Shown: positions 800 through 40,680 of the stretch, piece by piece
Layout of the letters: every line of letters starts with the position of its first letter
Numbering within the stretch: the stretch's first letter is position 1
IMG/VR virus record: IMGVR_UViG_3300031951_000346
Location: 1 to 44,143 of that record
Direction: 5' to 3' (one strand)
Origin: a virus
Length of the DNA stretch: 44,143 nucleotides
Translations under genes and position numbers: made by a program
The notes under the pieces: generated by a model
Databases searched by the model: none
Seen by the model: the letters and a program-made list of their open reading frames with translations, nothing else
What the model was told of the DNA's origin: nothing

Positions 800-1282
800 T
801 TAGGCGGCTTTGGCGCGGGTTAGGATGTCGTCCCAGAAACTTTCCCGATAACCTGTAAACATTTGATAAACCATTTGTGAGCCGTAAATATCCCAATCAT
901 GGCTAAAAAAGTTACCCATGTTTTCCATTGTTAAACCCTCAAAACCGGCATACATTCCTTTAATGTGGCGGATAATTGCCGCGTCCATCTCATTGCTGCG
1001 GTTGTTGTTTAAGCGGGCAAACTTAACTTGTGGCAAGTTTTCGTTGTAGTTGGTGTATTCATAGCAATCTGTCATTCCGTCAAAATGGCCATATACGTAT
1101 TTGGCAAGGATTGTCTCGATTTTCTTTACGATAAACGGCGGCAAATCCTCACACCGAACATTCACACTGTTGCCCATTGAGTAGGTGTCACTGGTCACAG
1201 AAAACTTTGTGCCGGGTAAAAGTGCCTTCAATTCCTTGCGGATCATTGCGGCGGCTTGGGCTGCTGTGCTTTTGGTTTTCAT
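800..1282 (-). CDS. LPD29-domain protein
   Basis: This 160-residue protein matches what I know of the large polyvalent protein-associated domain 29. It has an N-terminal Ala/Lys helix (AAAMIRKELKALLPGTKFSV), a strand-turn segment (DTYSMGNSVNVRC) and the diagnostic HFDGMTDCYEY motif near residues 86-96. LPD29 occurs within giant polyvalent proteins of phages and conjugative elements and as a free protein in phages; its biochemical role is not established. This is the first gene of the leftward operon. Its ATG at 1282 follows a GAGGG ribosome-binding site and a sigma70-like promoter at 1331-1359. The C-terminal half (residues 100-160) is less recognisable and may be phage-specific. Confidence 0.75.
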   Translation of the reverse strand: MKTKSTAAQAAAMIRKELKALLPGTKFSVTSDTYSMGNSVNVRCEDLPPFIVKKIETILAKYVYGHFDGMTDCYEYTNYNENLPQVKFARLNNNRSNEMDAAIIRHIKGMYAGFEGLTMENMGNFFSHDWDIYGSQMVYQMFTGYRESFWDDILTRAKAA

Positions 1283-6789: not shown

Positions 6790-7805
6790 CGACTTATGCC
6801 GGTACTACCCAAGGCGTCAATCAGTTTATGGCGGTTGATGCTCTGAAACAGATTAAAGCACAATCTGTTTTAACACGAATGGGCGCTGTTAAGCCAATTC
6901 CTAAAAACAACACCTTGAACTATCAACATCGCCGCCCCCAGGTGATGGCCGCTACAACCGCCCCATTGGTTGAAGGTGTTACGCCGACACCGTTGACAAG
7001 CGGTTACGACATCATCACAGGCACCGTTAAGCAATACGGCAACTGGGTTCCGACAACCGATGTCATCAAAGACGCGTCATCTTATCCGAAGCAGTTGCAG
7101 GAAATCGCGCAAGAATTGGGCGAGCAGGCAATCCGTTCAATCGAGCGCCTCGCTTTCTTTGCTCTTCGCGGCGGCACCTCGGTCACCCGCTCAAACGGTT
7201 CGGCCAGAAGTGATATCAATACGCCTGTTTCTTTGCAAACAATCCGTATTGCTGTTCAGTATCTGATGAACAATCAGGCCCGGACAACCAAAGGGAAAAT
7301 CACTGCGGGATCAGGCGAAAGCACTGTGCCAGTGCCTAAGGCCTATATCGCGGTTGCCCACCCTTACTTGCGTAACGATATTCAAAACTTGCCGGGCTTT
7401 AAGCCTATCGAGCGTTACGCCCGTACTGACGACATGATTGAAGGAAACGGTGAAGAAATCGGTACGATTGATAGCGTCCGCGTTATCATCTCAACCGCTT
7501 TTGACGCCTTTGCGGACGCTGGCGGTGCCAAAGCTGGTTCTGGCACAACAATGCTGTCAACCAGTGGAACCAACGCCGACGTTTACCCGATCCTGATCTT
7601 TGGTGATGAAGCCTTCATCCATTGCGGCATCACTGGCTCTGATAGCACAAACATTCAGATATTGCGGAGTGAGCCACAAGTCAGTTCATCTGACCCATTG
7701 GCACAGCGCGGTACGATTGGCTGGAAGACCTATCATGACACCAAAATTGTCAATGATTCATGGATGACCCGCATCGAGTGTGCAGCTACTGACCTCAGCG
7801 CATAA
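6786..7805 (+). CDS. Major capsid protein, N4-gp56-like
   Basis: This 339-residue protein has the HK97-fold pattern of the N4-gp56 capsid family. The N-terminal arm has VDALKQIKAQSVLTRMG, followed by PLVEGVTPTPLTSG, the TGTVKQYGNWVPTTDVI strand (E-loop side) and a long spine helix (LQEIAQELGEQAIRSIERLA). A domain near residues 190-240 includes VAHPYLRNDIQNLPGFKPIERY. It forms the icosahedral shell. No protease gene was seen nearby, which agrees with families that do not cleave their capsid protein. Two structural genes follow without a promoter. Gene order and sequence make this one of the firmest calls here. Confidence 0.9.
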   Translation: MTTYAGTTQGVNQFMAVDALKQIKAQSVLTRMGAVKPIPKNNTLNYQHRRPQVMAATTAPLVEGVTPTPLTSGYDIITGTVKQYGNWVPTTDVIKDASSYPKQLQEIAQELGEQAIRSIERLAFFALRGGTSVTRSNGSARSDINTPVSLQTIRIAVQYLMNNQARTTKGKITAGSGESTVPVPKAYIAVAHPYLRNDIQNLPGFKPIERYARTDDMIEGNGEEIGTIDSVRVIISTAFDAFADAGGAKAGSGTTMLSTSGTNADVYPILIFGDEAFIHCGITGSDSTNIQILRSEPQVSSSDPLAQRGTIGWKTYHDTKIVNDSWMTRIECAATDLSA

Positions 7806-7837
7806 TGGTCGCTAGCGGAAAAGAAAGGAATTAAATT

Positions 7838-8161
7838 ATGTCATCTTTACCAATTACCGGGACGGTTACGGGGACTGGTTCCGCGATTAACGTCTCTTTA
7901 GGCTTCGCGCCCGGATATGTAAAAATCTGGAACGAAACCGACACGAAGAAAGGCACGCTGGAGTGGTCATCCACTATGGCGGCGGCTTCGGGCTGGAAAA
8001 CCCTCAATGATGCGTATGTGACCCGGATCACATCGAATGGTATTTCTGCGTACACCGGCTCAACAACTGCCGGTGTGGGCTTTACCATTGGGGCAGATAC
8101 CGATCTGAATGGCGCATCTGATGTGATCCATTACATCGCTTTCCCGATCCGGGTGGCCTAA
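7838..8161 (+). CDS. Small beta-rich virion protein, possible head decoration protein
   Basis: This 107-residue protein follows the capsid gene by 32 bases with an AAAGGAA ribosome-binding site. Its sequence alternates strands and turns (GTVTGTGSAINVSLGFAPGY, then VKIWNETD) with no charged helices, as in small capsid decoration or cement proteins. The C-terminal half ends in a strand IHYIAFPIRVA. Genes in this position commonly encode abundant head surface proteins. I cannot name a family, so decoration is inferred from position and composition. Confidence 0.6.
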   Translation: MSSLPITGTVTGTGSAINVSLGFAPGYVKIWNETDTKKGTLEWSSTMAAASGWKTLNDAYVTRITSNGISAYTGSTTAGVGFTIGADTDLNGASDVIHYIAFPIRVA

Positions 8162-8162
8162 T

Positions 8163-8657
8163 ATGAGTGTATGGGCTGAACCAATCAAGCCCGGTGTGCT
8201 GACGGCAACAGACCTTAAGCACTACCGGCAAATCCCTGAAGCAGGGGCCTTCCTTGCGGCGGCTGTTGCTTCGGGCCGGACAAAATCAAATGTTGGTTTT
8301 GTTATCTCGCCCGGATTAACAAACATTGCGAATGTTGAGGTTCGGTTTCTGTCGCATGACAACAAGTTAGTTCCAGCGCCAAGAGTGTTTGATATTTTCT
8401 TGTCGGATGCTGCAACCGGAATAGGGCTAACAGCAACAACAGCATCTGGAACCGTTCAGGCAAAATCAGCATCTGGAACGCTGTTGTTTACCTATACGGC
8501 TAAAAAGCTGTTGAAGGTGCAGACGCTGGCAACAGGCTCTTATACGCTTGAGATCACAGACTCGGCAAAGACCGGCTTTTATGTGGCCGTTGTCGATCCT
8601 GTGTCTGGCTTGCCTATACTGTCGCGCAAGCTTGTTACCGCTGATTACGGCGCTTAA
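8163..8657 (+). CDS. Beta-rich virion protein
   Basis: This 164-residue protein starts one base after the previous stop. It has many short beta-type segments (ANVEVRFLSHDNK, VFDIFLSDAATG, KSASGTLLFTYTAKK, GSYTLEITD, TGFYVAVVD). The layout resembles immunoglobulin-like or jelly-roll surface domains on phage heads. A strong terminator follows directly, so it closes the capsid transcription block. The family is not recognised; a second decoration or fibre-like head protein is plausible. Confidence 0.6.
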   Translation: MSVWAEPIKPGVLTATDLKHYRQIPEAGAFLAAAVASGRTKSNVGFVISPGLTNIANVEVRFLSHDNKLVPAPRVFDIFLSDAATGIGLTATTASGTVQAKSASGTLLFTYTAKKLLKVQTLATGSYTLEITDSAKTGFYVAVVDPVSGLPILSRKLVTADYGA

Positions 8658-30952: not shown

Positions 30953-30957
30953 AAAGT

Positions 30958-31026
30958 GCCGAAGCCGGGACTCGAACCCGGAACCATGTCTTACAAAGAC
31001 ATCTCTACCAGTTGAGCTACTTCGGC
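30958..31026 (-). tRNA. tRNA-Thr, anticodon UGU, shortened
   Basis: The minus strand has acceptor GCCGAAG/CTTCGGC, anticodon arm ATGTC-TTTGTAA-GACAT (anticodon TGT) and T-arm CCGGG-TTCGAGT-CCCGG, all perfectly paired. It is only 69 bases before the discriminator. The D-stem has three pairs (CTC/GAG), and bases corresponding to positions 25-26 are missing; the variable loop has four bases. CCA is not encoded, unlike in the neighbouring tRNA, which begins four bases after the discriminator. Confidence 0.85.
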
Positions 31027-31071
31027 GTAAAACTGGCCTGCGCTCTTAATGACTCTGCCCTATTGTCTAGG

Positions 31072-31168
31072 AGGGCGCACACGAGTCACGGCTTCTTCGG
31101 CCACGAGAGACGCTTTTGATTGACGATAGCCCGGCCACAGGCTAACGAAAGGAGATTGTGCGCGCCCT
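31072..31168 (-). ncRNA. Candidate structured RNA next to the tRNA genes
   Basis: Read on the minus strand, 31168-31158 (AGGGCGCGCAC) pairs with 31082-31072 (GTGTGCGCCCT) in an 11-bp helix with one G-U pair. Inside lie a TAGCC/GGCTA hairpin and a 7-bp hairpin (TCGTGGC/GCCGTGA) containing two G-U pairs, giving a three-way junction shape. All three G-U pairs would be A-C mismatches on the plus strand, so the structure supports a minus-strand RNA, the same direction as the tRNAs. No gene fits here. It sits between the 35-residue peptide gene and tRNA-Thr and would be in their transcript. Confidence 0.5.
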
Positions 31169-31178
31169 AACTTGTTCC

Positions 31179-31286
31179 TTAGTCTGTGGTGTCGTTGCCA
31201 ACCTCGACTGTATCCGCGCCGCCCTCAACGGTTTCGGCGGCTACTGTGTCGTTGTCGGTGTCTATGGTGTTTTCAATGTCAGACAT
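31179..31286 (-). CDS. Small acidic peptide
   Basis: This 35-residue frame starts ATG at 31286 after AGGAATG. It is very acidic (ENTIDTDNDTVAAETVEGGA, ending EVGNDTTD) with no basic residues. Small acidic phage peptides include DNA mimics and host-protein inhibitors, but nothing here proves such a role. It is the first gene after a candidate promoter and precedes the structured RNA and tRNAs. The ribosome-binding site and operon position support it. Confidence 0.45.
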   Translation of the reverse strand: MSDIENTIDTDNDTVAAETVEGGADTVEVGNDTTD

Positions 31287-31342
31287 TTTTCATTCCTGTG
31301 TAATCGGATGGTTCGATAAAAGCGCCATGTGGCGACAAACAC

Positions 31343-35000: not shown

Positions 35001-35250
35001 TTTTCTCTCCCTCTGGGTTTGGCATTGCATAAGCGTAGTGTGTTGGTCGTCTTGTGGTTACAATCCACCTACCCAACCCATCCATTAACTGGAATTCTCC
35101 GTGCCCTGTTTTCCCAAGTGCGTTTTTCCATTTATCGCATAGTTGCCATTTGTCATTTTTTCTGTGGGGAAAATAAAGCCACAATGGGCCGGACGGTAGT
35201 TTGTCGCCCACAGGGAAACATTCAAACTCAATTTTTAATGGCTCACTCAT
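34993..35250 (-). CDS. DUF551-like small protein
   Basis: This 85-residue protein starts at ATG 35250 (ATG 35253 is an alternative). It has an LPSGPLWLYFPHRKNDKWQL segment and ends RRPTHYAYAMPNPEGEKND. The order GPLW, a W-rich strand and a final THxxxMP motif resembles DUF551 proteins, which usually end THWMPLPEPP. It shares the pattern with the longer protein at 29795-30172. The role is unknown. Its start overlaps the 3' end of the preceding gene. Confidence 0.5.
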   Translation of the reverse strand: MSEPLKIEFECFPVGDKLPSGPLWLYFPHRKNDKWQLCDKWKNALGKTGHGEFQLMDGLGRWIVTTRRPTHYAYAMPNPEGEKND

Positions 35251-35671
35251 CATAAACCTGCCCTTCCGCCACCGTCACGCCGTTGCGCTCGATGCGGATG
35301 ATGTGTGGGCAATCCTTGTCTCCTTCATTTGGTTCAAAATACCATCCTTCCCTAGTCCAACTCCTGTCCCCCGTTCTGATCGGGTAGGAAACATTGGCAC
35401 AAATTTTACTAAAGCGATGCCTGTACCCGCTGTTGCTAACAAAAATATCCTCTGGGATCATTGCCATGGCTTTAAGAAACTCCGGCACAGTCGGCAGTTT
35501 TGGCTTTGGTGGCTCAGTCACAATTTTCTCAGTGACGGTGAAGTGGGTTGTTTGCTCAGGTCGCTTGCCCTTGGTTGTGATGTCGGCACATGCTATGGAT
35601 GAACCCGGTGGCAACAAGGATATCATCTCATTGGGGTAAAAAACCCCCGGTATAAATTCAGTCGTTGTCAT
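35243..35671 (-). CDS. Member 1 of an unnamed phage paralogous family (PTVPEFL...RIERNG)
   Basis: ATG 35671 follows AGAGGAAAGG, giving 142 residues; longer in-frame starts have no ribosome-binding site. After an extended N-terminus (residues 1-55) comes the shared core: LPTVPEFLKAMAMIPEDIFV, a variable strand region, GDRSWTREGWYFEPNEGDKD, then PHIIRIERNGVTVAEGQVYD. Three other genes (36933-37238, 39298-39639 and 39632-39934) have the same core. The invariant end suggests a beta-sheet with a conserved Arg/Asn turn. No known family is recognised and the function is unknown. Confidence 0.65.
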   Translation of the reverse strand: MTTTEFIPGVFYPNEMISLLPPGSSIACADITTKGKRPEQTTHFTVTEKIVTEPPKPKLPTVPEFLKAMAMIPEDIFVSNSGYRHRFSKICANVSYPIRTGDRSWTREGWYFEPNEGDKDCPHIIRIERNGVTVAEGQVYDE

Positions 35672-35675
35672 CACC

Positions 35676-36071
35676 CTATCCTTTCCTCTGTTGTGTTTTG
35701 TAATAACCCGCCTCGATGTGCTTATCACACCAGCGAGGCTTTCTTCTTCTGTGCATAGCCGCCTCATTGCAAAAATGAAACCCGGCAATCTTGGGGTCGC
35801 CGATTGGCCAGCAACATTTCTCAACATCCAGCGCCATGATGGCCCGTTCTGCCGGTGTGCGCCTGTCATTCCTGCGCGGCCTTACGGCGGCAGTCCTACG
35901 ATGCAACACTTGCATGGATGGGCGCTTTTCCAATAGCCCCGCATCCATGGCACGTTTCCTGACACCGCACACCGCGTTTTTGGTAACGCCAACAATCTTG
36001 GCAATGGCTGTCGTTTTCATTGTGGCGTCCTGTGACAACTCAATGACCTGTTTGCGCTGTTCGGGTGTCAT
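35676..36071 (-). CDS. GcrA-like cell-cycle regulator homologue
   Basis: ATG 36071 overlaps the stop of the small membrane gene upstream (ATGA), giving 131 residues; an ATG 15 bases earlier is possible. The N-terminus has a GcrA-type HTH (EQRKQVIELSQDATMKTTAI, then AKIVGVTKNAVCGVRKRA). After a basic linker, the C-terminus has the GcrA signature CCWPIGDPKIAGFHFC, then RRRKPRWCDKHIEAGYY. GcrA of Caulobacter relatives binds sigma70 and promoters carrying methylated GANTC. This homologue could redirect host RNA polymerase or compete with host GcrA. A second homologue lies at 38003-38596. Confidence 0.82.
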   Translation of the reverse strand: MTPEQRKQVIELSQDATMKTTAIAKIVGVTKNAVCGVRKRAMDAGLLEKRPSMQVLHRRTAAVRPRRNDRRTPAERAIMALDVEKCCWPIGDPKIAGFHFCNEAAMHRRRKPRWCDKHIEAGYYKTQQRKG

Positions 36072-36178: not shown

Positions 36179-36936
36179 CGTTTTGTCCATATCTCCATCA
36201 GCGCACCAAGGTCATTGATAGCAATTCCTTGGCATAGCGGGAACTGGTCAACTACCTCATTTTTGTGGCGTTCTAGCGCAGCAATAATGTTGGCCTTTGT
36301 TTGCCCTGCATAGCTTTGGCCCGGCTCTTTCTGTGCATCCACTGAAAACCCAGACCAGAACGGCACGTATTTTGTGGTCTCAATATTGGCCGTCTGGTTT
36401 CGGCAAATATGGGGTTTGGTGTTGTAAATCATCAGTGCTAAAGAATTGGCCATCGCGGCTAGTATGGACGATGCCTCGACCCCTGCAAGCCCGATCTTTG
36501 CCATCTGGGGCACCATGGACAGGGTGACAGGCTTGTCGATGGCCTGAGCATGCAGTGATCCCAGCAAAGCAATGTAGTTTCTAATCATTGCTTGCTTTTC
36601 GATGTATCCGCCGATCCGCCATGTTGTTGTTGCCCAAGGCTCAACATCAAAATGGATTCCGTCAAAATGTTCATGGCCCCACTCGACATAGGTTTTAAGG
36701 GATTGTGCTTGCGCGGTCTTTGGACTGATAACCCATGATTTATCCCCAACCAGTGCCTCGATCCTGATGCCGTCGCGGCGCAGTGGTGCTAGGCGCTTTA
36801 TCGCGTCTTTGTCTTGCCACAACTTGCTGAATGACAGCCATAAGGTCGGCTGCTCCCAGTCTTTCAGGAAATTGTGCACATAGTCGATATTGCCGGGGTT
36901 GCAGCAAGCCGTTTGTGCCCAGAATGCGTATTTCAT
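36175..36936 (-). CDS. Putative glycoside-hydrolase-like (GH18-type barrel) protein
   Basis: This 253-residue protein has strand-helix order compatible with a TIM barrel. The segment FDGIHFDVEPWATTTW resembles the GH18 active-site motif DxxDxDxE with the catalytic Glu kept (about residue 98) but His in place of the second Asp. Other barrel-like strands are PTLWLSFSKLW, RIEALVGDKSWV, VTLSMVPQM and LALMIYNTK. No signal peptide is evident, so it would act in the cytoplasm or be released at lysis. A glycosidase in an early operon is odd. Activity is uncertain because of the altered motif. Confidence 0.5.
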   Translation of the reverse strand: MKYAFWAQTACCNPGNIDYVHNFLKDWEQPTLWLSFSKLWQDKDAIKRLAPLRRDGIRIEALVGDKSWVISPKTAQAQSLKTYVEWGHEHFDGIHFDVEPWATTTWRIGGYIEKQAMIRNYIALLGSLHAQAIDKPVTLSMVPQMAKIGLAGVEASSILAAMANSLALMIYNTKPHICRNQTANIETTKYVPFWSGFSVDAQKEPGQSYAGQTKANIIAALERHKNEVVDQFPLCQGIAINDLGALMEIWTKR

Positions 36937-37238
36937 TGGCTTCCCCCTGTGTAGTATCGCTGCCCCTGTGCCACGACTTTCTTGCCGCGCAGAATCTTGA
37001 CGATGTGAAGGGCGCGTAGATCGCCTTGTTCATCCAGCCGCCCCCAGCCGTTTAAGGTAAAGTTCCAGTAATCTGTGGTCATGATAGGGCGGTCATTGTC
37101 TGCGCCATCAATTCCTGCAAAGTTAACATGCCGTCCATGGTTTGTGACCAGCGTGTCGCCAACAGCAATGCCATCACGCAGAAAGTCCGGCACCAATGGC
37201 AACGGCTTGCGGCGGAATAGGGTTTTTAGGTTAATCAT
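36933..37238 (-). CDS. Member 2 of the PTVPEFL...RIERNG paralogous family
   Basis: This 101-residue protein overlaps its neighbours by four bases at both ends. A basic start (INLKTLFRRKPLPLVPDFL) is followed by RDGIAVGDTLVTNHGRHVNF, then MTTDYWNFTLNGWGRLDEQG, and the family ending ALHIVKILRGKKVVAQGQRY. Compared with the other members the final motif has IVKILRGK instead of IIRIERNGK. The core is conserved in order and spacing. The family is not known to me and the function is unknown. Confidence 0.65.
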   Translation of the reverse strand: MINLKTLFRRKPLPLVPDFLRDGIAVGDTLVTNHGRHVNFAGIDGADNDRPIMTTDYWNFTLNGWGRLDEQGDLRALHIVKILRGKKVVAQGQRYYTGGSQ

Positions 37239-37765
37239 GTGTTGTTTCCCTTATGACCATCCCCATCAAGTGTTACCTTGAAAAGCTGGCGTGAATGGGT
37301 GTGGTAAATCACAATGCCCTCTGGCTTCATAAAACCGGGCGCGGCAATGCTGCCCTTGCCAATCAATTGCTGTATGGCGTGATTGATTTTACCATCCTCA
37401 AAAACACCACTGTAAAGCACCGGCACAACATGGCAACACGATGGCCGATCATCAGCCCAGCGGCCCACGTTAAACAACGACCATCTCTTTTCTGTCAGGC
37501 CATACCGGCGCTGAATACCATTGCCCCACCATTCGCCATAGTGATGGCCCGGCCCCAGTTTCTCGATCAGCTCATCTTTGTTGTCGTGCGCCCATCGTGA
37601 AAAGCCGTAGTTGTCATCCTCTGGCGTTATCATCCGATTGCGCGATTGCGTGAAAAACTCACCGTTCTCACCAATGGCAACACAGGCATTTGTGCCATCC
37701 AGCTTTTCAGTGATGACAATATCCCGATACAGGCGCGATATTTTGTTAAATTCTCTAAATTCCAT
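37235..37765 (-). CDS. RNA ligase-like nucleotidyltransferase
   Basis: This 176-residue protein carries the ligase motifs in order. Motif I is EKLDGTN with nucleophile Lys21. The following segment FTQSRNRMITPEDDNYGF includes the Arg of motif Ia. HYGEWWGNGIQRRYGL is motif III-like. KPEGIVIYH is motif IV and LFKVTL is motif V. The size matches small phage and bacterial RNA ligases that lack the extra domains of T4 Rnl1 and Rnl2. It would join RNA ends using an AMP-enzyme intermediate, for example to repair tRNA cut by a host nuclease. The phage also encodes two tRNAs. ATG 37765 opens the frame. Confidence 0.82.
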   Translation of the reverse strand: MEFREFNKISRLYRDIVITEKLDGTNACVAIGENGEFFTQSRNRMITPEDDNYGFSRWAHDNKDELIEKLGPGHHYGEWWGNGIQRRYGLTEKRWSLFNVGRWADDRPSCCHVVPVLYSGVFEDGKINHAIQQLIGKGSIAAPGFMKPEGIVIYHTHSRQLFKVTLDGDGHKGNNT

Positions 37766-39297: not shown

Positions 39298-39639
39298 TTA
39301 AAACCAAGTGGCCACGTTAAAAAACATTCGGCGCTTAGGTTTTGGTTCGCGCTCACTCCAGTCTGGCACATGAAGCTGACCACGATATGGTTGCATATCA
39401 AGCGCGACAGCTTTTCCATTTCTCTCAATTTTGATTATATCAAGGTTGTCTGGCATCCCGCCCCGCGAATTAAGAATATTGTCAAAATTATTATCATGAG
39501 CGCTGTATTCTGGCCCTTGCCACACCAGTCTTGTGTAAGAAAAATGCTCTCGATACTCGTCTGATATAACAAGCACATCTCCGCGCCGTAACAACCCATC
39601 ACAAATAAACTTTTTCACTGTTGGTAGCACTTCAGTCAT
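39298..39639 (-). CDS. Member 3 of the PTVPEFL...RIERNG paralogous family
   Basis: ATG 39639 follows an AGGA site, giving 113 residues; a start further upstream lies inside the preceding gene. The core is LPTVKKFICDGLLRRGDVLV, then SDEYREHFSYTRLVWQGPEY, NNFDNILNSRGGMPDNLDII and KIERNGKAVALDMQPYRG. The ending differs from the other members by a 20-residue extension rich in basic residues. It overlaps the next member by eight bases, a tandem duplication. The function is unknown. Confidence 0.6.
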   Translation of the reverse strand: MTEVLPTVKKFICDGLLRRGDVLVISDEYREHFSYTRLVWQGPEYSAHDNNFDNILNSRGGMPDNLDIIKIERNGKAVALDMQPYRGQLHVPDWSEREPKPKRRMFFNVATWF

Positions 39640-39934
39640 TGTATTCCTGCCCCTTTGCAACCACCTTGCCATTTCGCTCAATGCGGATTATGTGGGTCGA
39701 TAATTTGCATCCATTTCTAGAAAAAAGATACCAGCCTCTTTCTGAAAAATTACCAAAATCAGTTGTTTCAATTGGGTGGTTCTTGTATAAGCCTCGCTCT
39801 GTGAATTCTGTTTGCCCAAAGCGATTCAAAACCAGAATATCCCCTCTTTGCACACCATTACGCAAAAACTCCGGCACCGTTGGCAGCCGTGACTGCTTGC
39901 GCTGGGATAGGTGTTTTAGATATTGGATCATCAC
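39632..39934 (-). CDS. Member 4 of the PTVPEFL...RIERNG paralogous family
   Basis: This 100-residue protein starts ATG at 39934, overlapping the stop of the dUTPase fusion (ATGA). The core is clean: LPTVPEFLRNGVQRGDILVL, then NRFGQTEFTERGLYKNHPIE, TTDFGNFSERGWYLFSRNG and THIIRIERNGKVVAKGQEYN. This is the shortest full member and shows the family best. Basic residues are frequent at the start (KHLSQRKQSR). The function is unknown; nucleic-acid binding is possible given the Arg/Asn-rich end but unproven. Confidence 0.65.
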   Translation of the reverse strand: MMIQYLKHLSQRKQSRLPTVPEFLRNGVQRGDILVLNRFGQTEFTERGLYKNHPIETTDFGNFSERGWYLFSRNGCKLSTHIIRIERNGKVVAKGQEYND

Positions 39935-40680
39935 GCCACCCCCGTCGAGCCAAAGCCGCCCGTTCGTTCTGTTTCGTCAAGTTCATCGACCTGTTCAAGC
40001 ACAACTTCTGGCAGTTTGATGATTTTCATCTGGGCGATGCGGTCGTCAGGCTCAACAATAAAGTCACGGATGCCGCTGTTGTATAGAATAACGCCAATCT
40101 CGCCGCGATAATCACTATCAATCAGGCCGGGGCTGTTGGTGATGGTGATCCCATACTTCAACGCAAGGCCGGATCGTGGTTGTATCTCGCCAGCGTATCC
40201 GGCGGGAATTGCCATTGCCAAGCCGGTCTTGATTAGACGTTGCTCCCCCGGCGGTATCAAGTCACCCTCCAAAGCCGCCAGGTCAAAAGCCGCACTGCCA
40301 GCCGTGGCGTATTGCGGCATCTTGGCGCGTGGGTCTAAGATTTTGACTTTTACGGTGGGGGTCATTATCGATGGTTTGTTCTCAAGATCATTAAGGCAGT
40401 TGTTAACCATTGTGATGATGTCCTCGTCCCATCTGAGTAAATGATCGACTCGCGCAATGCTACTCATGATCGTGGTGTGATTGCGGCCTGACAGCGCCTT
40501 GGCAATCCGTGTTAGAGAATACCCTATTTTCCGGTAGGCAATCCAGCACGCAATGTGCCTAGCTTCCGAAACGCATTTTGTCCGGTTTCGTTCAACAATC
40601 AGTGTTTTGTCAATGCCGGTGTTTTGAGCCACCACCGACAAAATCGTGTCAAACTTCCTGCGCGGCGCGTGGGTTGTCAT
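39931..40680 (-). CDS. dut: DnaA domain IV fused to dUTPase
   Basis: This 249-residue protein has two parts. Residues 25-82 match the DNA-binding domain IV of DnaA (ARHIACWIAYRKIGYSLTRI, then AKALSGRNHTTIMSSIARV), including the GRNHTT signature. Residues 106-249 are a complete trimeric-type dUTPase with all five motifs: AGSAAFDL, PRSGLA, GLIDSDYRGEIG, RIAQMKI and RTGGFGSTG. The dUTPase keeps uracil out of DNA and makes dUMP. No ribosome-binding site precedes M106 (ATG 40365), so a fused protein is the likely product. The DnaA part could bind DnaA boxes at host or phage origins. I know of no such fusion as a named family. Confidence 0.85.
   Translation of the reverse strand: MTTHAPRRKFDTILSVVAQNTGIDKTLIVERNRTKCVSEARHIACWIAYRKIGYSLTRIAKALSGRNHTTIMSSIARVDHLLRWDEDIITMVNNCLNDLENKPSIMTPTVKVKILDPRAKMPQYATAGSAAFDLAALEGDLIPPGEQRLIKTGLAMAIPAGYAGEIQPRSGLALKYGITITNSPGLIDSDYRGEIGVILYNSGIRDFIVEPDDRIAQMKIIKLPEVVLEQVDELDETERTGGFGSTGVA

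Follow-up and report, generated by a model that had tools for sequence, protein, structure and literature searches.

A candidate structured RNA conserved in two distantly related bacterial viruses

Just upstream of two tRNA genes in a virus record, a short gene-free stretch is predicted to fold into a branched structure, which raises the question of whether it encodes an RNA and, if so, what that RNA would do. The window analysed here is the whole of record IMGVR_UViG_3300031951_000346 (44,143 bases). The initial annotation placed the RNA on the minus strand at 31072-31168, as an 11-bp closing helix around two hairpins in a region free of genes. The last point agrees with the ORF list, which has no ORF of at least 60 aa over the stretch.

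31072-31082, minus: 3' strand of the closing helix, paired with the 5' strand at 31158-31168 in the minimum free energy (MFE) fold of the window alone
31179-31286, minus: ORF of 35 aa in the window, immediately 5' of the element, with none like it noticed in L007

Folding the minus strand of 31072-31168 does return this arrangement, with an MFE of −37.6 kcal/mol. One of 200 dinucleotide shuffles was at least as stable, and in a repeat with 1,000 shuffles 14 were as stable (z = −2.51). The plus strand reaches −37.3 kcal/mol (z = −2.66, 11 of 1,000 shuffles), and 36 of 2,938 genome windows (97 nt, taken every 30 nt on both strands) are equally or more stable. Because z is close to −2.5 on both strands and these genome windows equal or better it, the 97-nt fold by itself is weak evidence for a structured RNA and picks no strand. 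The minus strand had been chosen on the strength of three G-U pairs; the fold holds four (two of them in hairpin 2 and one each in the closing helix and hairpin 1), and on one sequence they fail as a pointer, the plus strand being equally stable.

Conservation in a distantly related virus

Two independent examples of the element are available, the window and a distant relative, L007; a further contig, 3300032093_000450, is near-identical to the window and carries the same DNA, including the element. The window and L007 have in common a set of genes with 24% to 73% protein identity, the proteins neighbouring the element being 43% to 73% identical, and blastn returned nine HSPs between the two contigs, the sole non-coding one being the element itself (31034-31158, 81.7%). 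The L007 contig (30,248 bp) is without any tRNA gene, yet carries the element, which is therefore independent of the tRNAs. It occupies the same gene position there as in the window, flanked by the spanin genes on one side and the shared small-membrane-protein gene on the other.

The conserved core has a sharp 5' boundary and equals L007 in 68 of 73 alignment columns, and a second conserved block, 31034-31047, is identical at all 14 positions. The 97 bases first delimited are too short, as the element reaches 31034. Conservation of the core is unusual for non-coding DNA, though not unique, because the best other 73-nt stretch, a coding one in gene 800-1282 (minus), matches L007 at 67 of 73 nt. 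That stretch, at about 1176-1248, stands far above its surroundings, and another constrained element, of DNA or RNA, may lie there. The parts of the present element are as follows.

31034-31168, minus: whole candidate structured RNA element, about 135 nt, from the blastn match to L007 and alifold
31087-31158, minus: conserved core
31162-31167, minus: 5' strand of helix A' (6 bp), partner of 31108-31113; flank alignment hand-fitted
31148-31158, minus: conserved unpaired strand CAATCTCCTTT (alignment with L007), resembling an anti-Shine-Dalgarno stretch
31124-31147, minus: hairpin 1 (2+7 bp, interrupted by a U-U mismatch), invariant at every pair
31114-31123, minus: conserved unpaired strand TCAATCAAAA, facing 31148-31158 (alignment with L007)
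31108-31113, minus: 3' strand of helix A', also in the alternative helix B (31106-31113)
31099-31103, minus: 5' strand of helix D, TGGCC, partner of 31034-31038
31087-31105, minus: hairpin 2 of the initial annotation, rival of helix D
31083-31089, minus: 5' strand of helix C, GTGACTC (GTGGTTG in L007), partner of 31049-31055
31049-31055, minus: 3' strand of helix C, GAGTCAT (CAGCCAT in L007)
31040-31046, minus: AGAGCGC, helix B partner of 31106-31113, inside the 14-nt conserved 3' block
31034-31038, minus: 3' strand of helix D, GGCCA (alifold)

No third homologue was found in viral collections searched with RNA patterns, proteins, and protein alignments, in which only 3300032093_000450 and L007 carry the element besides the window. 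Among 20 pattern-matched viral stretches these two held the full core and the 18 others lacked it, as did 14 other stretches from another viral pattern scan; contigs L002, L003, and L005 gave no match to the element, and blastn against phages and plasmids returned fragments only (E 2 to 8). A genome-collection match to a Pseudomonas MAG was set aside, since only the pattern matched and the sequence looks like a hairpin next to a Shine-Dalgarno site. One RNA model (R2) gave three matches at E ≤ 0.01 in 398 genomes, where about four are expected by chance. The best genome match (L101) lies inside an ORF that, from its translation, reads as a transporter; for matches L102 and L103 the examination covered an alignment and a tRNA search only. 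Over 49 virus records the same model gave, besides L007, three weak matches, one of them in contig L047, whose sequence was read and judged unrelated. A second model (R3) gave one weak match over 48 virus records, again in contig L047, and none in 385 genomes of one class, which is a weak negative as this search had no positive control.

RNA families were searched with Rfam 15, in which no family matches the element either at the gathering threshold or weakly, with E up to 10. The whole window returns its two tRNAs only, the region 31020-31320 a single chance match outside the element (sR22, 31177-31232), and L007 two plus-strand matches attributed to chance, both away from the core. Neither ARAGORN nor RF00005 finds a tRNA-like fold in the element, ARAGORN calling only the two neighbouring tRNAs. 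In the part of the literature covered, the element is not described.

Consensus fold and competing helices

A sequence-only MAFFT alignment of the window and L007 was folded with RNAalifold. The consensus retains hairpin 1, and the closing helix of the initial annotation, which is not conserved in L007, gives way to helices B (31106-31113 with 31040-31046) and C (31083-31089 with 31049-31055). As RNA, the strands of helix C are GUGACUC and GAGUCAU in the window, GUGGUUG and CAGCCAU in L007, with two-sided compensatory changes at two pairs and a one-sided change at one pair. Helices B and C together hold two two-sided and two one-sided changes with no pair lost, and all 26 consensus pairs are canonical in both viruses. 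The first proposal had looked to homologues for compensatory changes of this kind, and helix C supplies them. A shuffle control on pair changes (143 of 500) is non-discriminating because only two independent sequences enter it.

Column shuffles separate the strands. The minus-strand consensus scores −29.65, with z = −2.85 (4 of 1,000 shuffles), versus z = −0.99 (157 of 1,000) on the plus strand; for alignment columns 61-142 the minus strand gives z = −3.57 (2 of 1,000) and the plus strand z = −0.63, several alignment stretches having been tried, so that the best single z is not to stand alone. In a coding control, 82 window-strands were drawn from eight pairs of orthologous genes after exclusion of windows with over 25 gapped columns; z averaged −0.4 (sd 1.03), two window-strands reached −2.85, and none −3.5. 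Together with the conserved core and the compensatory changes, this strand difference moderately supports the minus-strand RNA first proposed. Two simpler units were rejected. Taken alone, the core with its two hairpins shows no excess of folding on either strand (z = 0.19 minus, −0.19 plus), and a duplex between the 3' block and the core is no better than shuffles (360 of 1,000 and 348 of 1,000), so helix B by itself is disfavoured.

The 5' flank was added to the alignment in a hand-fitted register, and the alignment of helix A' is thus fitted to the structure. With the flank so placed, the extended consensus scores −34.6 versus −31.55 and pairs A' with hairpin 1 and D with C, such that A' encloses an internal loop of conserved bases plus hairpin 1 and D encloses C; its column shuffles, subject to the same hand-fitting, give z = −3.58 (1 of 1,000). 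The 3' half, D and C, is free of hand-fitting and gives z = −3.78 (2 of 1,000) on the minus strand. Between the window and L007, helix A' has three one-sided changes with pairing kept at all of them, and the last pair of helix D is C-G in the window and U-G in L007. Helices A' and B share 31108-31113 and are mutually exclusive, their pairs being all canonical in both viruses (two sequences, with A' fitted); helix D and hairpin 2 likewise exclude each other.

Folded alone, the window favours the 11-bp helix (−43.5 kcal/mol) by 2.6 kcal/mol over A' with C (−40.9) and by 5.6 over B with C (−37.9). For L007 alone, the corresponding energies are −39.8 for A' without C, −38.2 for A' with C, −37.9 for a 5-bp outer helix, and −35.9 for B with C. 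In transcripts starting at the core, B with C is the MFE fold of the window and lies within 0.6 kcal/mol of the MFE in L007. Since there are two sequences only, they do not decide between the three competing folds. Taking the comparative evidence as a whole, 31034-31168 on the minus strand of this bacterial virus probably encodes a structured RNA.

Operon context and possible roles

Three genes follow the element on the same strand.

30956-31026, minus: tRNA-Thr(TGT) (ARAGORN), 7 nt downstream of the element, missing in L007
30878-30952, minus: tRNA-Met(CAT) (ARAGORN), missing in L007
30637-30855, minus: small membrane-protein gene, first downstream ORF common to both viruses (58% over 31 aa)

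They belong to a minus-strand operon spanning about 31.3 to 27.9 kb, with the element at its head, and co-transcription of the element with the tRNAs is plausible from their orientation. In L007 a sequence TTGACA-17-TTCTAT, read by eye, would place the transcription start roughly at the opening base of A'; a promoter scan of the L007 region did not list it, and no comparable promoter was seen beside the element in the window. No intrinsic terminator was found in L007 3600-4700 or, in the window, between the element and the tRNAs. The terminator scan of the operon gave one minus-strand site, 30284-30262, with 4.3 expected for the region, and no clear terminator requiring antitermination was seen within the window operon. 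Upstream of the element, a terminator-like hairpin with a T run at 31426-31395 (minus) may insulate the operon from early minus-strand genes. Inside the operon, at 28047-28019 (minus), is a sigma-70 promoter close to consensus (11 of 12), TTGACA-17-TAAAAT with a TG ahead of the second hexamer.

A GcrA-like protein is encoded in the window and GapR in L007, both of families not known outside Alphaproteobacteria; in a control, GapR matched 1 of 14 genomes, Caulobacter. Their presence suggests an alphaproteobacterial host, and the phages probably infect members of this class. Elsewhere in the window, one ORF (39931-40680, minus) combines two Pfam domains, a dUTPase and the C-terminal DNA-binding domain of DnaA, apparently an unusual fusion, and ORFs 35243-35869, 36933-37238, and 39632-39934 (all minus) match one L007 ORF (27296-27850) and seem to be paralogues within a single unnamed family.

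Because of the position of the element, a leader role is our best guess, held tentatively: a phage structured RNA heading the minus-strand operon and acting during transcription. The RNA would fold into two domains, A' with hairpin 1 and D with C, in each of which invariant bases form an internal loop between an outer and an inner helix, and it could switch to B, hairpin 2, and C by reusing the same strands. Exchange of A' and D for B would then control the operon by antitermination or attenuation. A direct translational switch of the next ORF is less likely, since two tRNAs intervene in the window and their 5' processing would cut the transcript.

Nearly as likely as an operon leader, and thus a real if uncertain possibility, is a stable small RNA that is released from the transcript and acts elsewhere. 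In the window, RNase P could release it at the 5' end of tRNA-Thr, only 7 nt past the element, and its conserved single-stranded UCUCCUU could pair with Shine-Dalgarno regions, or the RNA could bind a host protein. Conservation of this unpaired 5' strand in both viruses fits such a role, and several gene starts can pair with it, but so can any strong Shine-Dalgarno sequence, which makes the target matches unspecific; moreover, no target gene common to both viruses was seen, and the release site is not known in L007.

It is unlikely that the element is a DNA-level site (an origin, a regulator-binding site, or a packaging site) with conservation unrelated to RNA. The sharp 5' edge of the core and the lack of fold excess in the core alone would suit such a site, whereas the compensatory changes in helix C and the bias of the consensus fold to the minus strand argue against it.

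The roles suggested in the initial annotation, a processing signal, tRNA mimic, or decoy belonging to the tRNA cluster, now seem very unlikely. Two tRNA genes do adjoin the element on its strand, and both viruses encode RNA-joining enzymes, although different ones (RNA_ligase PF09414 at 37235-37765, minus, in the window; RtcB at 6967-8178, minus, in L007). Against a processing signal or tRNA-cluster RNA stands the L007 element, which has no tRNAs beside it, and neither mimic nor decoy was supported by any of the tests, ARAGORN and Rfam making no tRNA-like call. Least credible of all is that the stretch encodes a short conserved peptide, or is conserved by chance: one minus frame has no stop across the window's core and a coding stretch elsewhere is conserved to a similar degree, but a 1-nt indel in the L007 core shifts the frame, three of its four substitutions would be non-synonymous (read by hand), and the only phage match to the peptide has an E of 7.

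The operon leader thus stays our first choice, and the element is a well-defined candidate for whose function we offer inference only. A stronger version is rather improbable: the element would found a new class of leader RNA in phages, its two invariant internal loops would form a sensor or an RNA-polymerase-binding site, and exchange of A' and D for B would switch the operon. If the conserved RNA in these two little-studied phages is real, it would make an additional family and might uncover a means of operon control.

Comparison with known phage RNAs

RNAs C and D of phage T4 are small stable RNAs of its tRNA cluster. Compared by description, the present element has a tRNA-cluster location in common with them and differs in not being tied to tRNAs. 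Theta ribozymes, HDV-like RNAs with a nested double pseudoknot and a catalytic C, are likewise structured RNAs adjoining phage tRNAs, with a cleavage site within about 5 nt of the tRNA 3' end (PMC10879173). In contrast, 31034-31168 lies 5' of both tRNAs rather than at a tRNA 3' end, and is also present without tRNAs in L007.

Structured non-coding RNAs of phages are few, one account putting those described by 2021 at 21 (PMC8545117). The phage motifs manA, wcaG, and PhotoRC-II, found by comparison, occur within phage genes or close to them, and several lie in possible 5' UTRs (PMC2864571); the element resembles them as a phage-gene-associated structured RNA. Unlike them, it has no Rfam match, and no metabolic gene was recognised among the scanned operon proteins.

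Another point of comparison is the put RNA of phage HK022, an antiterminator of about 70 nt with two stem-loops that acts in cis on RNA polymerase, putL lying just downstream of its promoter and putR about 270 nt downstream (PMC9378689). By that description, put is about half as long as the element (about 70 versus about 135 nt), which in addition has predicted competing helices; what the two would have in common is a phage RNA with two stem-loop domains at the head of an operon, a design that in put needs no dedicated protein.
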